Part shown: positions 5,154-58,169 of the stretch, piece by piece | How positions within the stretch are numbered: the stretch's first letter is position 1 | Layout: each line of letters starts with the position of its first letter | Assembly (NCBI RefSeq): GCF_003434055.1 | Contig: NZ_QVEX01000005.1 | Coordinates: 62,001-126,000, forward strand | Origin: Enterocloster aldenensis | GTDB taxonomy: Bacteria; Bacillota; Clostridia; Lachnospirales; Lachnospiraceae | Direction of reading: 5' to 3' | DNA: 64,000 nt | The notes under the pieces: model-generated | Database searches by the model: none | Told to the model about the DNA's origin: nothing | The model's input: only the letters and a program-made list of their open reading frames with translations | Translations under genes and position numbers: made by a program

Positions 5154-6116
5154 ATGGATAAGGCTAAAATATTGAAGATTGTGAAAAGACAGGAGTTTAT
5201 CGTTGCGGCTTTCTCACTGCTGGTATTCATCTTCTTTTCCCTGTTTTCAGACAACTTCTACACTCCCACCAACCTGAGGCTGATCCTGCAGCAGTATGCG
5301 GTAAACGGCATCTGTGTTCTGGGAATATCAATTGTAATCATCCTTAATGGCATTGACCTTTCTGCAGGGGCAATCCTTGCCATGGCCGGGGCAGTATCCG
5401 GCACCATGGTAAAATCAGGCGTCCCCGTGATTCTTTGTATACTGGCAGGCGTGGCGCTGGGCATGCTGTTCAGCTTTATCAATGCGCTTATCATAACAAA
5501 ATGCAGGGTTCCTGCCATCGTTACCACCATTGCCACCAATTACCTGTTCCGCGGGCTGATTGTGGTCATAACCGGAGGATACTGGGTGAACCAGTTTCCC
5601 AAAGCATTCACCAGGATTGGCGCCGGCAGGCTGTTTGGCATATCAAACCTGTTCTGGATGGCAATGCTCCTGCTGATTGTGATGACCGTGTTCATGAAAT
5701 ATTTCAACACAGGCAGGAAGATATACGCGGTGGGCACCAATCCCCAGGGAGCCGACTTAAGCGGCATCAGTTCCGACAGGATACAGCTTATTGGCTATAC
5801 CATCTGCGGCGCCCTTATCGGCTTTGCCGGGGTCATGTATGCATCCTCCTATGGGGCAATCAACCCGTCATCCACAGGCACCACCCTTGGGACCACGGTT
5901 CTGGCAGCCGCCCTTGCCGGCGGTGTGAACTTTGGCGGAAAGGGCACCCTGCTGGGCGGGGCCATCGGCATGCTGATGATTACTATCATCAACAACGGGC
6001 TTATCCAGATTAAGGTATCGGAATACTGGGTTGACGCAATTACAGGAGCCATTATCCTGATTGCCCTGGTACTCAATGTCCTCAACGCCCGCGAGAAAAG
6101 AAAGGGGGATAACTGA
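5154..6116 (+). CDS. Sugar ABC transporter permease (RbsC type), first of two
   Basis: 320-residue polytopic membrane protein of the branched-chain/ribose permease family (BPD_transp_2). About eight to ten hydrophobic segments are visible and the conserved I-D-L-S-A-G-A-I-L-A-M-A-G motif is present near residue 65. It forms half of the membrane pore with the next gene product, with which it shares a one-base stop/start overlap (TGATG). The ribosome site GGGGAGG is 7-8 nt upstream of the ATG. The presence of two different RbsC-like permeases rather than one suggests a heterodimeric channel. Confidence 0.93.
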   Translation: MDKAKILKIVKRQEFIVAAFSLLVFIFFSLFSDNFYTPTNLRLILQQYAVNGICVLGISIVIILNGIDLSAGAILAMAGAVSGTMVKSGVPVILCILAGVALGMLFSFINALIITKCRVPAIVTTIATNYLFRGLIVVITGGYWVNQFPKAFTRIGAGRLFGISNLFWMAMLLLIVMTVFMKYFNTGRKIYAVGTNPQGADLSGISSDRIQLIGYTICGALIGFAGVMYASSYGAINPSSTGTTLGTTVLAAALAGGVNFGGKGTLLGGAIGMLMITIINNGLIQIKVSEYWVDAITGAIILIALVLNVLNAREKRKGDN

Positions 6117-7081
6117 TGGGGGCAGTAAACTCTATTGTTACAGGCATAAAGAATTACTCCAAAAAGGATGGCAATAAAAACATTGTCCTGCTGGCTGTAT
6201 ATCTCATCATCCAGACCAGTGTATTTGCCATGCTGACTCCATTCTTCATCACCGCGGCCAACTTCCAGAACCTGATGCGCCAGACCGCGGAACTGGGGAT
6301 GGTGACAATCCCTCTTGCAATCATACTGATGACAGGCAATATCGACCTGTCCATCGGTTCCGTGATGGGAGTCTGCGCCATCTCCCTGGCCAGGCTGTTA
6401 AAGACCGGCATGAACATCTGGCTGGCAGTACTGATAACCATATTAATCGGAGCCGCAATCGGAAGCCTTAACGGTTTCCTGGTGGCCAGGATGCATCTGG
6501 CCGGCATTGTGGCAACCCTTGGAACACAGGTCATGTTAAGAGGCGTGTGCAACATCCTCACCGGCGGCAGGCCGGTAAGCGGCCTTCCCCAGCAGTTCCT
6601 GTCCTGTGCAAATATCCGGATCCTGGGTATGCCTGTCAGCTTTATTTTCATGGTGGTTATCTTCATGATAGCAATCTTCATCATGCAGAAAACCAGCTTT
6701 GGCATACGGGTACATGCCATTGGATATAATCCCAAGACCAGTGTCTATTCAGGGCTTGGGTCCGACAAGATTAAGTTCATCATGTTTACCCTGTCCGGCG
6801 CGGTTGCCGCCATTGCAGCGGCCTTCATGCTGATGAGGTTTGCCAGCGCTGAGTCTAAATTTGCCAGCGGTTATGACACCGACACCCTTACATCCCTTCT
6901 GATTGGAGGAATCAGCATTGCCGGCGGTTCCGGCAACATGATCGGCGCGCTCCTGGGATTCATAACCATTGCAACCCTGAGGAACGGTCTGAACCATCTG
7001 GGAGTATCCGCAATCTTCCAGACCGTCATCCTTGGAGTACTTATCATAGTATCTGCTGTTAACTTTAAAAAGAAAAACTAA
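6116..7081 (+). CDS. Sugar ABC transporter permease (RbsC type), second of two
   Basis: 321-residue RbsC-like permease paralogous to the preceding gene. The family motif I-D-L-S-I-G-S-V-M-G-V appears near residue 78, and the C-terminal half repeats the L-I-G-G-I-S-I-A-G-G-S-G pattern. It probably pairs with the 5154-6116 product to form a heterodimeric channel driven by the upstream RbsA-like ATPase. Start and stop are tightly packed between neighbours, with 25 bp to the binding-protein gene. Confidence 0.93.
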   Translation: MGAVNSIVTGIKNYSKKDGNKNIVLLAVYLIIQTSVFAMLTPFFITAANFQNLMRQTAELGMVTIPLAIILMTGNIDLSIGSVMGVCAISLARLLKTGMNIWLAVLITILIGAAIGSLNGFLVARMHLAGIVATLGTQVMLRGVCNILTGGRPVSGLPQQFLSCANIRILGMPVSFIFMVVIFMIAIFIMQKTSFGIRVHAIGYNPKTSVYSGLGSDKIKFIMFTLSGAVAAIAAAFMLMRFASAESKFASGYDTDTLTSLLIGGISIAGGSGNMIGALLGFITIATLRNGLNHLGVSAIFQTVILGVLIIVSAVNFKKKN

Positions 7082-40667: not shown

Positions 40668-40739
40668 GTGTTTTGGGGAAATAAGATGTATTTCACATAA
40701 ATTTACCATAAAATCGAAGAATTTTGGCATGCTTCCCTC

Positions 40740-41009
40740 TTATCTGAGGCGTTCATATTCAAATGCATCCAGGATCAGGGCTGTCAGCCGTTCCTTTTCC
40801 TCTTTGCCAAGGACAAGGACCGGCAGCCTTTTATTTTCCTTTATCAGGTAAGGATAAACCACGCTTAACCTCCCCCGGCAGTAATAAATCCTGATACCGC
40901 AGATGGTAATCCCGTCGCTTATCCTGACAGAGGCAATCCCGCACAGATAATCCTCCTCATCCTTCTTTAAACGGACGCACACATGGATTTTATCATTATC
41001 TGTTCCCAT
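40740..41009 (-). CDS. SpoVG-like protein
   Basis: 89-residue small protein with the overall pattern of SpoVG, an RNA/DNA-binding regulator first linked to sporulation septation. Matching features are I-H-V-C-V-R-L-K-K at the N-terminus, G-I-A-S-V-R-I-S-D-G-I-T-I-C-G-I-R-I-Y-Y as the central two strands, R-L-S-V-V-Y-P and a C-terminal helix R-L-T-A-L-I-L-D-A-F-E. The ATG at 41009 has GGAGG 6 nt upstream and overlaps the previous gene by 14 nt. A longer open frame to 41330 is an out-of-frame reading of the upstream gene and is rejected. It appears to be transcribed from the invertible promoter at 41500-41527. Similarity is recognised by eye; identity with true spoVG is not claimed. Confidence 0.55.
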   Translation of the reverse strand: MGTDNDKIHVCVRLKKDEEDYLCGIASVRISDGITICGIRIYYCRGRLSVVYPYLIKENKRLPVLVLGKEEKERLTALILDAFEYERLR

Positions 41010-41352
41010 ACCATTCCTCCCGGCTTCTGTATATACCGTTTTCAGCCTTTTCCCTTGAAAATGCCACAAGGGCCTCCCTTGCCTTGGCGCTGTCCGGATA
41101 GGCGCATTCCGTTCCCATGATATATGCGGCCGCCCGGTTCCATTCCTCAATGCTGTACCGTCCCGGATCCAGGCAGGGCAGCACGAACCGCAGCGCAGAC
41201 TGGCAATAACCGTACCTGAGGTCTGACAGGTACAGACATTCAAGGCCTGCGGCCAGGTCTTCCAGCAGACCGCCTCCGCCCCGCAGCTGGCTGTCCTGTC
41301 CGATTGTCCCTTTTTCCATTCCATTACCATTCATTTTGTCCCTATCCTCCAT
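40996..41352 (-). CDS. Uncharacterised protein co-transcribed with the SpoVG-like gene
   Basis: 118-residue protein that I do not recognise. It is mildly acidic, without membrane segments. A central stretch L-E-D-L-A-A-G-L-E-C-L-Y-L-S-D-L-R-Y (about 33-50) is followed by Y-S-I-E-E-W-N-R-A-A-A-Y-I-M and a helical C-terminus ending E-E-W-Y-G-N-R, suggesting a small all-helical fold. Start at ATG 41352 (AAGGAAGG about 10 nt upstream); an alternative Met lies six codons later and another at 41391. It overlaps the SpoVG-like gene by 14 nt, so the two are translationally coupled. It is the first gene downstream of the invertible segment. Confidence 0.6.
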   Translation of the reverse strand: MEDRDKMNGNGMEKGTIGQDSQLRGGGGLLEDLAAGLECLYLSDLRYGYCQSALRFVLPCLDPGRYSIEEWNRAAAYIMGTECAYPDSAKAREALVAFSREKAENGIYRSREEWYGNR

Positions 41353-41419: not shown

Positions 41420-41447
41420 TTACGACATAATACATATTATGTTTTAA
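41420..41447. repeat. Recombination site A of the candidate invertible switch
   Basis: 28-bp imperfect palindrome read as 11-6-11: left arm TTACGACATAA (41420-41430), spacer TACATA (41431-41436), right arm TTATGTTTTAA (41437-41447). Twenty-one bases (41422-41442) are repeated exactly, in inverted orientation, at 41615-41635. The 11-6-11 layout is that of Xer-type tyrosine recombinase core sites. Confidence 0.75.
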
Positions 41448-41499
41448 ATCAGATAAAACCAGCCTATATCCTATGCCGTAAACAAAAATCCATATACAC

Positions 41500-41527
41500 A
41501 TTATACCACAAAATGAATGTCAGACAA
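41500..41527 (-). promoter_or_regulatory. Promoter inside the invertible segment
   Basis: Minus-strand TTGTCT (41527-41522), spacer 16 bp, extended -10 TGG-TATAAT (TATAAT at 41505-41500). Transcripts would start near 41493, cross site A and reach the ATG at 41352 after about 140 nt. Confidence 0.7.
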
Positions 41528-41609
41528 TATTTATTTCATATCCGCTAACGGATATGTTTCTATGATATCTTAATTATCATGTTTATCGTGTTTTTGTCCC
41601 TATATCCAT

Positions 41610-41637
41610 AAACGACATAATATGTATTATGTCGTTT
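41610..41637. repeat. Recombination site B of the candidate invertible switch
   Basis: Perfect 28-bp palindrome apart from its central dinucleotide: left arm AAACGACATAA (41610-41620), spacer TATGTA (41621-41626), right arm TTATGTCGTTT (41627-41637). The spacer is the reverse complement of the site A spacer, so the two sites are in inverted orientation. On the plus strand the palindrome is followed by CTTTTTTAT, so it could also terminate transcripts heading towards the recombinase gene. Confidence 0.75.
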
Positions 41638-41642
41638 CTTTT

Positions 41643-42488
41643 TTATATAATCATTTCCATTTTCTGCATGACCTCCTGCTGCTCTTCCCCGGTTGAAATA
41701 GTATAAATCCTGGTAGTCTCAACACTTGAATGCCCCAATATATCCGCCAGATGGACCAGGTCCTTATCAACCCCATAATAGGTATAGGCAAACAGATGCC
41801 TGAGATTATGGGGATATACCTTTTGTTCCGGGATGCCGGCCTTAATGCACAGCCGCTTCATCTCCGCCCATATATTGCTGCGGTTCACGGACATACCTCC
41901 CGACGTGACAAACACAGGACCGGAAGTCAGACCGTTATCACGGCAATACGCGCGCAGACGGCACCGCAGTTTTTCAATCATGAAAATGGTTCTGAATTTC
42001 CCTTTATTATATATCTCCACCCGCCCCGTATCCAGGGCTTCCACTGTGATAAAAGGCAGTTCGCTTATGCGTATCCCCGTATTGCCTATGGTCTCCATAA
42101 TCATGGCCAGCCTCTGGTTGTCCAGATGCAGGGCCGTTGTCACCAGCCTTGCGTACTCTTCCTTGGATAGCCTCCGCTCTTCGCCTCCCATCAGACGGCG
42201 TTGCACCTTAAACTGGCTTACCCTGTACCTGTCCCAGTTCTTATAATGAAAAAAACAGTTCAGCGCAGCCAGCATGGAGTTGGCGCTTGATATCTTGTAC
42301 GCCCCCTGCAGATAACTTTTATACTCTATGACCGTTTCCCTGGTCACCAATTTCCCCGGTGCAAGATATTGTATAAATGCCCCAACATCCCTGCAATACT
42401 TGTCAATGGTCCGCGCCGAGCGTTCCATGTTAATCAGATACGTTCTAAAACCAAGTATATCAGCCCTTACGATTTCATTTTCCTGCAT
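41643..42488 (-). CDS. Tyrosine recombinase (Xer-like, probable DNA invertase)
   Basis: 281-residue tyrosine recombinase. An N-terminal SAM-like core-binding domain (about 1-90) precedes the catalytic domain with all active-site residues: Arg140 in N-T-G-I-R-I-S-E-L, Lys164 in N-K-G-K-F-R, His227 and Arg230 in H-N-L-R-H-L-F, His253 in L-G-H-S-S-V and the nucleophile Tyr262 in T-R-I-Y-T. Length fits XerC/D and the phase-variation invertases. AAGGAGG is 6-7 nt upstream of the ATG. The stop lies 5 bp from an 11-6-11 palindrome whose inverted partner is 190 bp further on, so this enzyme most likely inverts that segment. It could also have been involved in acquiring the surrounding accessory block. 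Confidence 0.92.
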   Translation of the reverse strand: MQENEIVRADILGFRTYLINMERSARTIDKYCRDVGAFIQYLAPGKLVTRETVIEYKSYLQGAYKISSANSMLAALNCFFHYKNWDRYRVSQFKVQRRLMGGEERRLSKEEYARLVTTALHLDNQRLAMIMETIGNTGIRISELPFITVEALDTGRVEIYNKGKFRTIFMIEKLRCRLRAYCRDNGLTSGPVFVTSGGMSVNRSNIWAEMKRLCIKAGIPEQKVYPHNLRHLFAYTYYGVDKDLVHLADILGHSSVETTRIYTISTGEEQQEVMQKMEMII

Positions 42489-56639: not shown

Positions 56640-58169
56640 TTAGGCAAGGATTTTCTCCTTGCGCCCTATCATCTCATCAATCCGGCTGATATACTGCTCC
56701 ACTTCCTTCACGTTCTCACACCGTTCCCGCCTGTTTTCAGATGGGAACACCACCTTGGTGGTGGTGCCGGCGCCGCAGGCCGCAATGGTCTGCATTTCCT
56801 CCATGATAAGGATGTTATAGATACAGGCCTTGCCCGGAAGGGAGTATCCCACATTCTCAAAGTTGCCGGCCATGTTCTTCTGGCGGTAGAGATAATATGG
56901 CTCCATCCCCATCTCCCTGGCGCATGCCGCGCTCAGGTCAATCATCTCAGGCGTATTGCTGATTTTCAGGTCCCCGTACTGTTCCTTAAACATGTTCAGG
57001 CGGGCAGCCCGCTTAATGGCAAGGGAATGGACGGTAAGGGAGTCCGGCGCCAGCTTCTTTACCTCATGAAGGGTATGGCGCACATCGTCCATATCCTCTT
57101 CAGGAAGTCCCATGATCAGGTCCATGTTGATGTTGTCAAATCCCATCTCCCTTGCCATCCAAAACCGCTCCTTAACCATTTCCACGGTATGACGGCGTCC
57201 AATCAGATCCAGGGTCTTCTGGTTCATGGTCTGGGGATTAATGGAAATTCGGGTAATCCCATGGTCCCTCAGCACCTGCAGTTTTTCCTCAGTTATGCTG
57301 TCCGGCCGTCCGGCTTCCACGGTAAACTCCAGGGCGTGCGCTGTGTCAAACAGGTCTTCCAGCTTACATAAGATGGCATGGATATCTTCTGCCGGAAGGG
57401 ACGTCGGCGTGCCGCCGCCAAAATAAATGGTATCCAGCGGGCGTCCCTTCATCTTCCCTGCGGTGTATTCCAGTTCCTTAAACAGCGCCTCCAGATAAAG
57501 CCCTGTGCGCCCCGTCCATTTGCTGATGGGATAAGAGGTAAAGGAACAGTACAGGCAGGTGGTGGGACAGAACGGGATTCCCACGTAAAGGCTGTATCCC
57601 CTCTCATAATCCAGGGGTTCAAGCAGCTTCTTTTCCCTGGCCGCAATCTCCAAACTCAGGTTAATCTTCTCATCGCTGGCCATGTAGGTTTCTTTCATGA
57701 AGGAGCGTATATCGTCCCCGCTCCAGCCTTCCTCCAGCCTGGTAAGGGCAATCTTGGTGGGACGGATTCCTGTAAGGGAACCCCAGGGAAGCCTGGTTCC
57801 CGTGCGCTCCATAAGCATCTGATAGAACATCTTCTTAACCACATTCTTGGTGGCTGAGTGGTCAGACAGGTCGGAGGCACCGGTACGGGCCATTGCCAGT
57901 TTCCAGGATACAGGTCCTTCTTCCTCCGGGCTTGTCCCGGCCGGACAATCCTCGCCCCTGCCCTGATCCAGTCCATTCCTGCCGCCATCCCCGCCGCCGT
58001 CCCTGTCCCATATGAGGACCGAGATTTCCCCCTGCCCCAGCCTTGTCTCCACGTAAAACCACAGTTCATCCCTAACCTCATGGGCATAGGTTTCCCCCGG
58101 ATAAAAGGACATCAGAAGTTCTCTGATGTCCTGTTCATATGCATTATCCTGTATTAATAATCCAATCAT
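56640..58169 (-). CDS. hemZ: Oxygen-independent coproporphyrinogen III oxidase-like radical SAM protein
   Basis: 509-residue HemZ-type radical SAM enzyme. The 4Fe-4S motif is C-P-T-T-C-L-Y-C-S-F (CxxxCxxC, about residues 180-187), followed by Y-F-G-G-G-T-P-T-S, V-E-A-G-R-P-D and M-D-L-I-M-G-L-P-E. The N-terminal extension of about 150 residues is typical of HemZ, though an Asp/Gly/Glu-rich stretch (about 75-110) looks like a local expansion. Start ATG 58169 follows GCAGG; a longer frame to 58271 would overlap the metallo-hydrolase gene. Clostridia commonly carry it next to hisS, but here hisS is 16 kb away. Confidence 0.88.
   Translation of the reverse strand: MIGLLIQDNAYEQDIRELLMSFYPGETYAHEVRDELWFYVETRLGQGEISVLIWDRDGGGDGGRNGLDQGRGEDCPAGTSPEEEGPVSWKLAMARTGASDLSDHSATKNVVKKMFYQMLMERTGTRLPWGSLTGIRPTKIALTRLEEGWSGDDIRSFMKETYMASDEKINLSLEIAAREKKLLEPLDYERGYSLYVGIPFCPTTCLYCSFTSYPISKWTGRTGLYLEALFKELEYTAGKMKGRPLDTIYFGGGTPTSLPAEDIHAILCKLEDLFDTAHALEFTVEAGRPDSITEEKLQVLRDHGITRISINPQTMNQKTLDLIGRRHTVEMVKERFWMAREMGFDNINMDLIMGLPEEDMDDVRHTLHEVKKLAPDSLTVHSLAIKRAARLNMFKEQYGDLKISNTPEMIDLSAACAREMGMEPYYLYRQKNMAGNFENVGYSLPGKACIYNILIMEEMQTIAACGAGTTTKVVFPSENRRERCENVKEVEQYISRIDEMIGRKEKILA

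Follow-up and report, generated by a model that had tools for sequence, protein, structure and literature searches.

Within a 64-kb stretch of Enterocloster aldenensis DNA (the whole stretch analysed, called the window throughout), a 162-bp promoter-bearing segment between two inverted sites very probably forms a phase-variation switch run by the adjacent recombinase and fitted with a terminator and a regulator output; from the sequence comparisons below we put the probability of this reading at about 0.88. Promoter inversion by the adjacent tyrosine recombinase was the core of the original prediction for this DNA, and it is supported by both orientations in one ortholog, an assembly gap over the segment in another, two flips among relatives, and co-occurrence and co-variation of sites and recombinases across a family. 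The finding also proved more general than first described, extending to many related bacteria and to other genes. Table 1 lists the features.

Table 1. Features of the switch locus (positions in the 64-kb window)
Feature	Position	Strand	Description
ORF2, SpoVG-fold protein (predicted)	40740-41009	-	89 aa; overlaps the ORF1 end; from Foldseek and a weak Pfam match
ORF1, first switched gene (putative)	40996-41352	-	118 aa; unnamed family of small helical proteins; from homologs and a predicted model
Site A, distal	41420-41447		imperfect palindrome; spacer TACATA; outward T-run absent
Invertible segment	41448-41609		162 bp between the 28-bp sites; from the orthologous segment seen in both orientations in E. 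citroniae
Promoter (predicted)	41527-41500	-	TTGTCT-16-TATAAT with TG extension (TGG before TATAAT); 10/12; faces the gene pair
Second short hairpin, inside the segment	41537-41556	+	tail TTTCTATGAT, TTTCT tail; upstream of the promoter
Site B, recombinase side	41610-41637		perfect 11-6-11 palindrome; spacer TATGTA; terminator-like on the + strand, tail CTTTTTTATA
Tyrosine recombinase, likely cognate invertase	41643-42488	-	281 aa; Pfam Phage_integrase and SAM_1

A 21-nt perfect inverted repeat (41422-41442 and 41615-41635) lies in the two sites, as had been predicted, and no second exact inverted repeat of at least 13 nt with 50-500 nt between its arms occurs anywhere in the 64 kb. Scanning both strands with the site pattern (up to three mismatches) matched both sites and nothing else in the window, with a mean of 0.02 matches in 100 shuffles. 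The 11-6-11 geometry claimed for both sites held in full for site B; site A is less regular, its arms falling below ten of 11 pairs in the palindrome scan, with nine of 11 arm bases pairing by reading. The inner pattern ACATAAT-N4-ATTATGT is common to the two, the irregularity of site A lying in its outer arms. Their spacers are mutually inverse, as described, and the reading of a 6-bp spacer is backed by the family analysed below, where the central 6 bp are equal within the pair in 87 of 87 site pairs, the inner 4 being required to match by selection. The window also holds two pairs of 12-nt repeats (41334-41345/41592-41603 and 41328-41339/41508-41519), which we set aside as probable chance; four more 12-nt inverted pairs lie elsewhere in it.

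The segment carries one good, not perfect, promoter on the minus strand, directed toward the 40740-41352 gene pair; its score was reached in 1.5% of 200 shuffles (p = 0.015). The best promoter on the opposite strand had a score reached in 89% of shuffles, so that both the single promoter and the lack of a comparable one facing the other way agree with the original prediction. Two 9/12 matches, one on each strand, overlap the segment or site B. Because the promoter points at the gene pair, the window is read as being in the ON state, the orientation first proposed. Terminator-like sites within the segment show no excess as a class (two found, shuffle mean 2.0).

Judged by its sequence, the protein encoded beside site B is a Xer-like tyrosine recombinase. 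It scored 76.2 bits against Phage_integrase (PF00589; cutoff 27.1) and 29.5 bits against SAM_1. In an alignment with E. coli XerD (structure 1a0p, compared by sequence), residues R140, K162, H227, R230, H253 and Y262 fall on the corresponding motifs, which we take to be catalytic in that enzyme; with a score above the Pfam cutoff and R-K-H-R-H-Y kept, the protein belongs to PF00589. Against the NCBIfam equivalog models it stayed below the cutoffs, at 98.4 bits versus 329.6 for XerD and 97.3 versus 335.15 for XerC. The recombinase had been described as complete, with all six catalytic residues, and as ending 5 bp from site B; the alignment and the gene end at 41643 bear out both statements.

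We scanned species genomes and obtained two syntenic orthologs in the order recombinase, segment, gene pair: Clostridiales bacterium 1_7_47_FAA (L002, 91%) and Enterocloster citroniae WAL-17108 (L001, 71%). In L002, the closest relative, a run of N lies exactly over both sites and the segment. L001 holds two copies of the segment, one behind the recombinase and one behind a repeated recombinase end that follows an N gap, and these copies are mutually inverse at 242 of 242 bases inside the segment and at 267 of 268 when the near site is included. Their sole mismatch falls in the outer arm, where it is expected because exchange within the core should leave the outer arm in place. The copy called ON carries TTGCCT-16-TATAAT toward the gene pair, as in the window. 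Given the N gap and the duplicated recombinase end, the copies may be two alleles joined by assembly; they look like alleles of a mixed culture set side by side by the assembler, which would still mean that both orientations existed.

Inverted segments were also found between family members. Recombinase and downstream DNA are collinear between L158 (genome G006) and L172 (G012) with the segment inverted, and L166 and L171 present the same flip between collinear flanks, at weaker scores. Among 30 comparable pairs, some of them copies of one genome or paralogs, 24 had the same orientation and six were inverted; in another comparison, the 20 best segment pairs, again including such cases, gave 19 with the same orientation, the exception being the two L001 copies. 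This evidence comes from the L001 ortholog and family members, and the nearest of 17 genomes of the genus is 94% identical over aspS-hisS. The window thus has the inverted repeats around a promoter-bearing segment that mark invertible promoters, and both orientations occur in nature for L001 and for family members; on these alignments, inversion for this type of locus appears close to established. A comparison of assemblies had been proposed as a check on the prediction, and the pattern that would have spoken against it, one orientation in all relatives and palindromes not conserved, is not what the relatives gave.

Site pairs accompany the recombinase across its family. A first set of 50 oriented loci comprised the window, L001-L041 and eight paralogs from the L001 and L002 genomes; sites were sought with an arms motif learned from repeats in these same loci, and for that reason the set is no independent test. 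A site pair with inverse 4-nt cores lay 3' of the recombinase in 42 of the 50. Of the eight misses, L002 has an N gap; in L004, L006, L015 and L040 the contig stops 88-199 bp past the recombinase; and L018, L019 and L039 have one site or none. A second set gave a site pair in 45 of 54 further loci, at least two of which (L195, L204) equal first-set loci; it was drawn from 17 Enterocloster genomes (45 matches) and 291 Clostridia genomes (72 matches). Pairs at L056 and L057 in the first set and L165 in the second appeared only at a looser arm threshold, and L001 entered the first set with its ON copy, chosen by hand. Left out of the 50 were L042-L049 of 49 scanned loci (fragments or below 30% identity) and, of 21 matches, L050-L051 (which coincide with L002 and L001), L059, L061-L069 and a match lacking a locus; examination of L059 and L061-L069 found no inverted repeat. 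At L052, L055-L058 and L060, the sites lie 3' of the recombinase once the loci are oriented. None of ten distant recombinases (28-35% identity) in the L001 and L002 genomes had an inverted repeat, and the site scan away from recombinases returned seven matches in 253 kb. Of the 17 Enterocloster genomes, 14 have a family member at E ≤ 1e-40 and two have the locus type of the window itself; of the 291 Clostridia genomes, 49 have a family member at this threshold.

The sites follow a common code, CCACATAAT-NNNN-ATTATGTGG, with CCACATAAT-like arms and a free, non-palindromic core. Cores are equal within a locus and varied between loci: the 87 pairs contain 53 distinct cores, none self-complementary, in keeping with a need to distinguish inversion from misaligned exchange. 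At site position 3, all 19 departures from the consensus were shared by both sites, and agreement fades from position 9-10 outward. Similarity between recombinases correlated with similarity between arms (r = 0.43, reached by none of 2000 permutations), a relation that could come partly from shared descent. The pairing of sites with recombinases throughout the family is seen in the sequences themselves.

Family segments mostly carry a single strong promoter. The stronger strand had a promoter at p ≤ 0.05 in 27 of 42 segments and the weaker strand in eight; 15 of the 42 had none that passed this 0.05 threshold of significance. Promoters pointed toward the recombinase (OFF) in 23 loci of the first set, away in seven, with 12 undecided, and the corresponding numbers in the second set were 26, 12 and seven. 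The first mechanically called ORF past the far site faces away in 39 of 42 loci. S-layer, BspA-like, collagen-like and capsule genes, of the kinds commonly subject to phase variation, are among the family's targets at other loci. Several loci depart from the two-site layout. Three to six sites, as tandem copies on one or both sides, occur at L031, L054, L055 and L060, which might allow more than two arrangements. At the end of a contig in L004, two sites with equal cores (+57 and +151 after the recombinase) are directly repeated, an arrangement that would predict deletion, not inversion. An inverton in Blautia parvula (L036, 6354-6644) precedes small ORFs, one of them with an HU-like DNA-binding match slightly over the Pfam cutoff (25.6 bits, cutoff 22.4) and possibly another regulator target.

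Site B with its T-run had been proposed to stop antisense transcripts in the OFF state. In the window, its hairpin folds at -12.2 kcal/mol (z = -4.9) and is followed by the tail CTTTTTTATA. We scored a T-run as at least five T in the 8 nt directly after the palindrome, reading from the site. First-set loci had such a run after the near site toward the recombinase in 28 of 42 cases, compared with five, six and five for the three remaining directions; the second set gave 28 of 45, compared with ten, six and seven. For control, it occurred behind 238 of 970 other genes of the same loci and at 27.6% of random segment positions. The proposal therefore stands as a family trend and not as a rule, the T-run being absent in 14 of 42 and 17 of 45 loci. 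In E. citroniae the run is weak and short (five T in 8).

Three other explanations deserve weighing against inversion by the adjacent enzyme. Inversion of the segment could depend chiefly on a master recombinase that is encoded at another locus and acts in trans, with the adjacent gene incidental. Genomes of the family do hold paralogs at E ≤ 1e-40 (six in G001, four in G002), and parts of two C. difficile studies describe RecV working in trans on several switches (PMC5903667; PMC2784873). Against this stand the adjacency of recombinase and sites (42/50 and 45/54 loci), the different arms found with paralogs of a single genome (CGACATAAT, TTACATAAT, CCACAGAAT, CAACAAAAG) and the correlation of recombinases with arms (r 0.43), and we regard a trans-acting enzyme as unlikely. 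We give still less weight to the idea that the palindromes serve only as terminators or operators of the recombinase gene, with no inversion. The fold of site B (-12.2 kcal/mol, z -4.9) and its T-run would suit a terminator, but a terminator needs no second, core-matched site. The cores match within a pair while differing between loci; L001 has both orientations with the exchange inside the core, and the relatives L158/L172 and L166/L171 are inverted, which leaves this reading very improbable.

Least probable of all, with hardly any weight in our estimate, is a mobile-element origin, in which the recombinase would be an integrase and the sites remnants of its attachment sites. The surrounding region does vary: in at least eight of 15 other Enterocloster loci hisS adjoins the gene that lies at 56646 in the window, that gene starting no more than about 60 bp from a stretch conserved ahead of hisS (at about 40674-40693 in the window), and the region between is lineage-specific. 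This insert takes up about 16 kb of the window (40.7-56.6 kb) and includes the switch and transporter genes. Yet no phage record matches the DNA, and no recombinase turned up in the viral contigs scanned for close relatives; the sites are inverted, not direct, stand 190 bp apart around a promoter, and keep this arrangement across Clostridia with different cargo. Local inversion by the neighboring recombinase remains the reading that we prefer.

We next consider the genes that the switch would control. ORF2 is predicted to have a SpoVG fold: its ten best Foldseek matches are all SpoVG chains (probability 1.00, E 0.011-0.057, TM by query length 0.64-0.75), although none reaches E 0.001. The Pfam SpoVG model (PF04026, cutoff 29.6) gave 16.2 bits for the window protein and 16.7 for P0121, both below the cutoff; ten of 12 ORF2 homologs matched the model weakly (best E 0.0012), and a profile of ORF2 found no match among PDB sequences. 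NCBI annotates a homolog with 80% identity as a SpoVG family protein. DNA and RNA binding is a property of the SpoVG family, and by its modeled fold ORF2 is probably a SpoVG-like nucleic-acid-binding regulator. A scan located no terminator-like site between ORF2 and hisS, so ON transcripts might reach hisS.

ORF1 had no credible match to Pfam, NCBIfam or a PDB fold. Its predicted model is confident over residues 31-100 (block mean pLDDT 90-97), and a structure search with it gave 41 matches at E ≤ 10, the best at 2.2, and no fold. Among 397 Lachnospiraceae genomes, 25 encode a relative of ORF1, as do 11 among 391 Clostridia genomes, and loci were taken from part of these matches. A recombinase lies directly upstream on the same strand in 21 of 43 such loci, 11 of the tyrosine and ten of the serine type, a count in which rows are partly dependent (L112, L113 and L144 nearly duplicate one another, L003 is matched by L116, and L128 is the L002 locus) and several helped build the query. 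Between recombinase and ORF1, an inverted repeat unreached by 200 shuffles occurs in ten of the 11 tyrosine and seven of the ten serine loci; among the 22 loci that lack such a recombinase, three (L119, L137, L145) likewise have a significant inverted repeat. The serine recombinases (L093/L118, L094/L121, L101/L125, L102/L127, L111, L120, L129, L133, L134, L143) appear from these sequences to mark a second, unrelated type of switch before the same protein family, with the inverted repeat of several built around AAAGTAGACTTT. No promoter in their segments matches the best of the tyrosine family, the top score being 10.6 (L118 and L120). At L093, L094 and L097, ORF1 is followed by a convergent gene, which leaves ORF1 as the only evident target there.

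Two further observations concern ORF1 relatives. Homologs P0141-P0156, and L002 at about 6090-6240, have N-terminal QCGTxN-like hexapeptide repeats (18-bp units) in variable number, which the window ORF1 lacks and which are a possible second source of variation. At L098, L103, L105 and L106, ORF1-like proteins stand, by reading, beside genes resembling those of conjugative elements and may have a different role in the family.

These results suggest a simple working cycle. The XerD-like recombinase would bind both palindromic sites, pair their identical asymmetric 6-bp centres, exchange strands there and so invert the 162-bp segment. When ON, the promoter would read across site A, a hairpin without a T-run, into ORF1 and then ORF2. 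When OFF, it would read toward the recombinase gene from the 3' side; intrinsic termination at site B, followed by its T-run, would then keep antisense transcripts out of that gene. Expression of a SpoVG-like regulator and its small helical partner would be the output, and because that output is a regulator, the switch probably toggles a wider cell state. We hold more tentatively, at somewhat worse than even odds, a broader proposal in which ORF1 founds an unnamed clostridial family of small, phase-variable regulators that tyrosine and serine recombinases, though unrelated, have both placed behind invertible DNA; its SpoVG-like partner in the Enterocloster lineage makes the switch set a cell-wide regulatory state and not a single surface structure; and the sites double as one-way terminators that protect the recombinase gene from a promoter turned toward it.

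If the main reading is right, a gut commensal flips a SpoVG-fold regulator together with its partner, and clonal populations split into two regulatory states. The compact recombinase-site code could then be searched for in Clostridia genomes, predicting switches and the genes that they control, and the idea of a site that is also a terminator would explain how a recombinase gene tolerates a promoter aimed at it. The switch itself is of a known kind; its regulator target, the site-terminator and the link of ORF1 to two recombinase types are the parts worth following. A literature search on invertible promoters and invertons, and on Clostridia including Enterocloster, judged largely by titles and abstracts, returned no paper on this switch.

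Several known systems share elements with the window. The dif sites of XerC and XerD have 11-6-11 geometry, and the likeness extends to the catalytic domain; the window differs in using one enzyme on paired inverted sites for what would be a local inversion, not chromosome dimer resolution. The E. coli fimS element has two recombinases and accessory proteins, whereas the window has one Xer-like enzyme and palindromic sites. As described in part of PMC2784873, fimS, with FimB and FimE, likewise carries its promoter on the invertible segment with the recombinase genes nearby. The same source gives C. difficile cwpV 21-bp inverted repeats around a 195-bp segment, with the promoter outside that segment and an intrinsic terminator proposed in the OFF transcript (PMC2784873). 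The RecV switches (cwpV and flagellar) and the window thus have in common a clostridial tyrosine recombinase and 21-bp inverted repeats. However, recV does not lie near cwpV, and several switches are affected by RecV (PMC2784873; PMC5903667), whereas in the window the promoter lies inside the segment, the recombinase is adjacent, and the terminator-like element faces the recombinase.

Closest to the window is inverton group 139 of Jin et al. 2025 (PMC11892184), with the same architecture and host class. According to the portions of that paper that treat it, 32 of its 33 invertons are in Clostridia, a group 35 tyrosine recombinase is near nearly all of them, the nearby tyrosine recombinases are oriented such that the inverton promoter could not drive them, and two members shifted orientation in read data (PMC11892184). 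The word SpoVG does not occur in its main text, and a site acting as a terminator, an idea put forward here, is not part of the description of group 139 in those portions. By architecture and host class, the switch in the window is probably a member of inverton group 139, served by invertase group 35.
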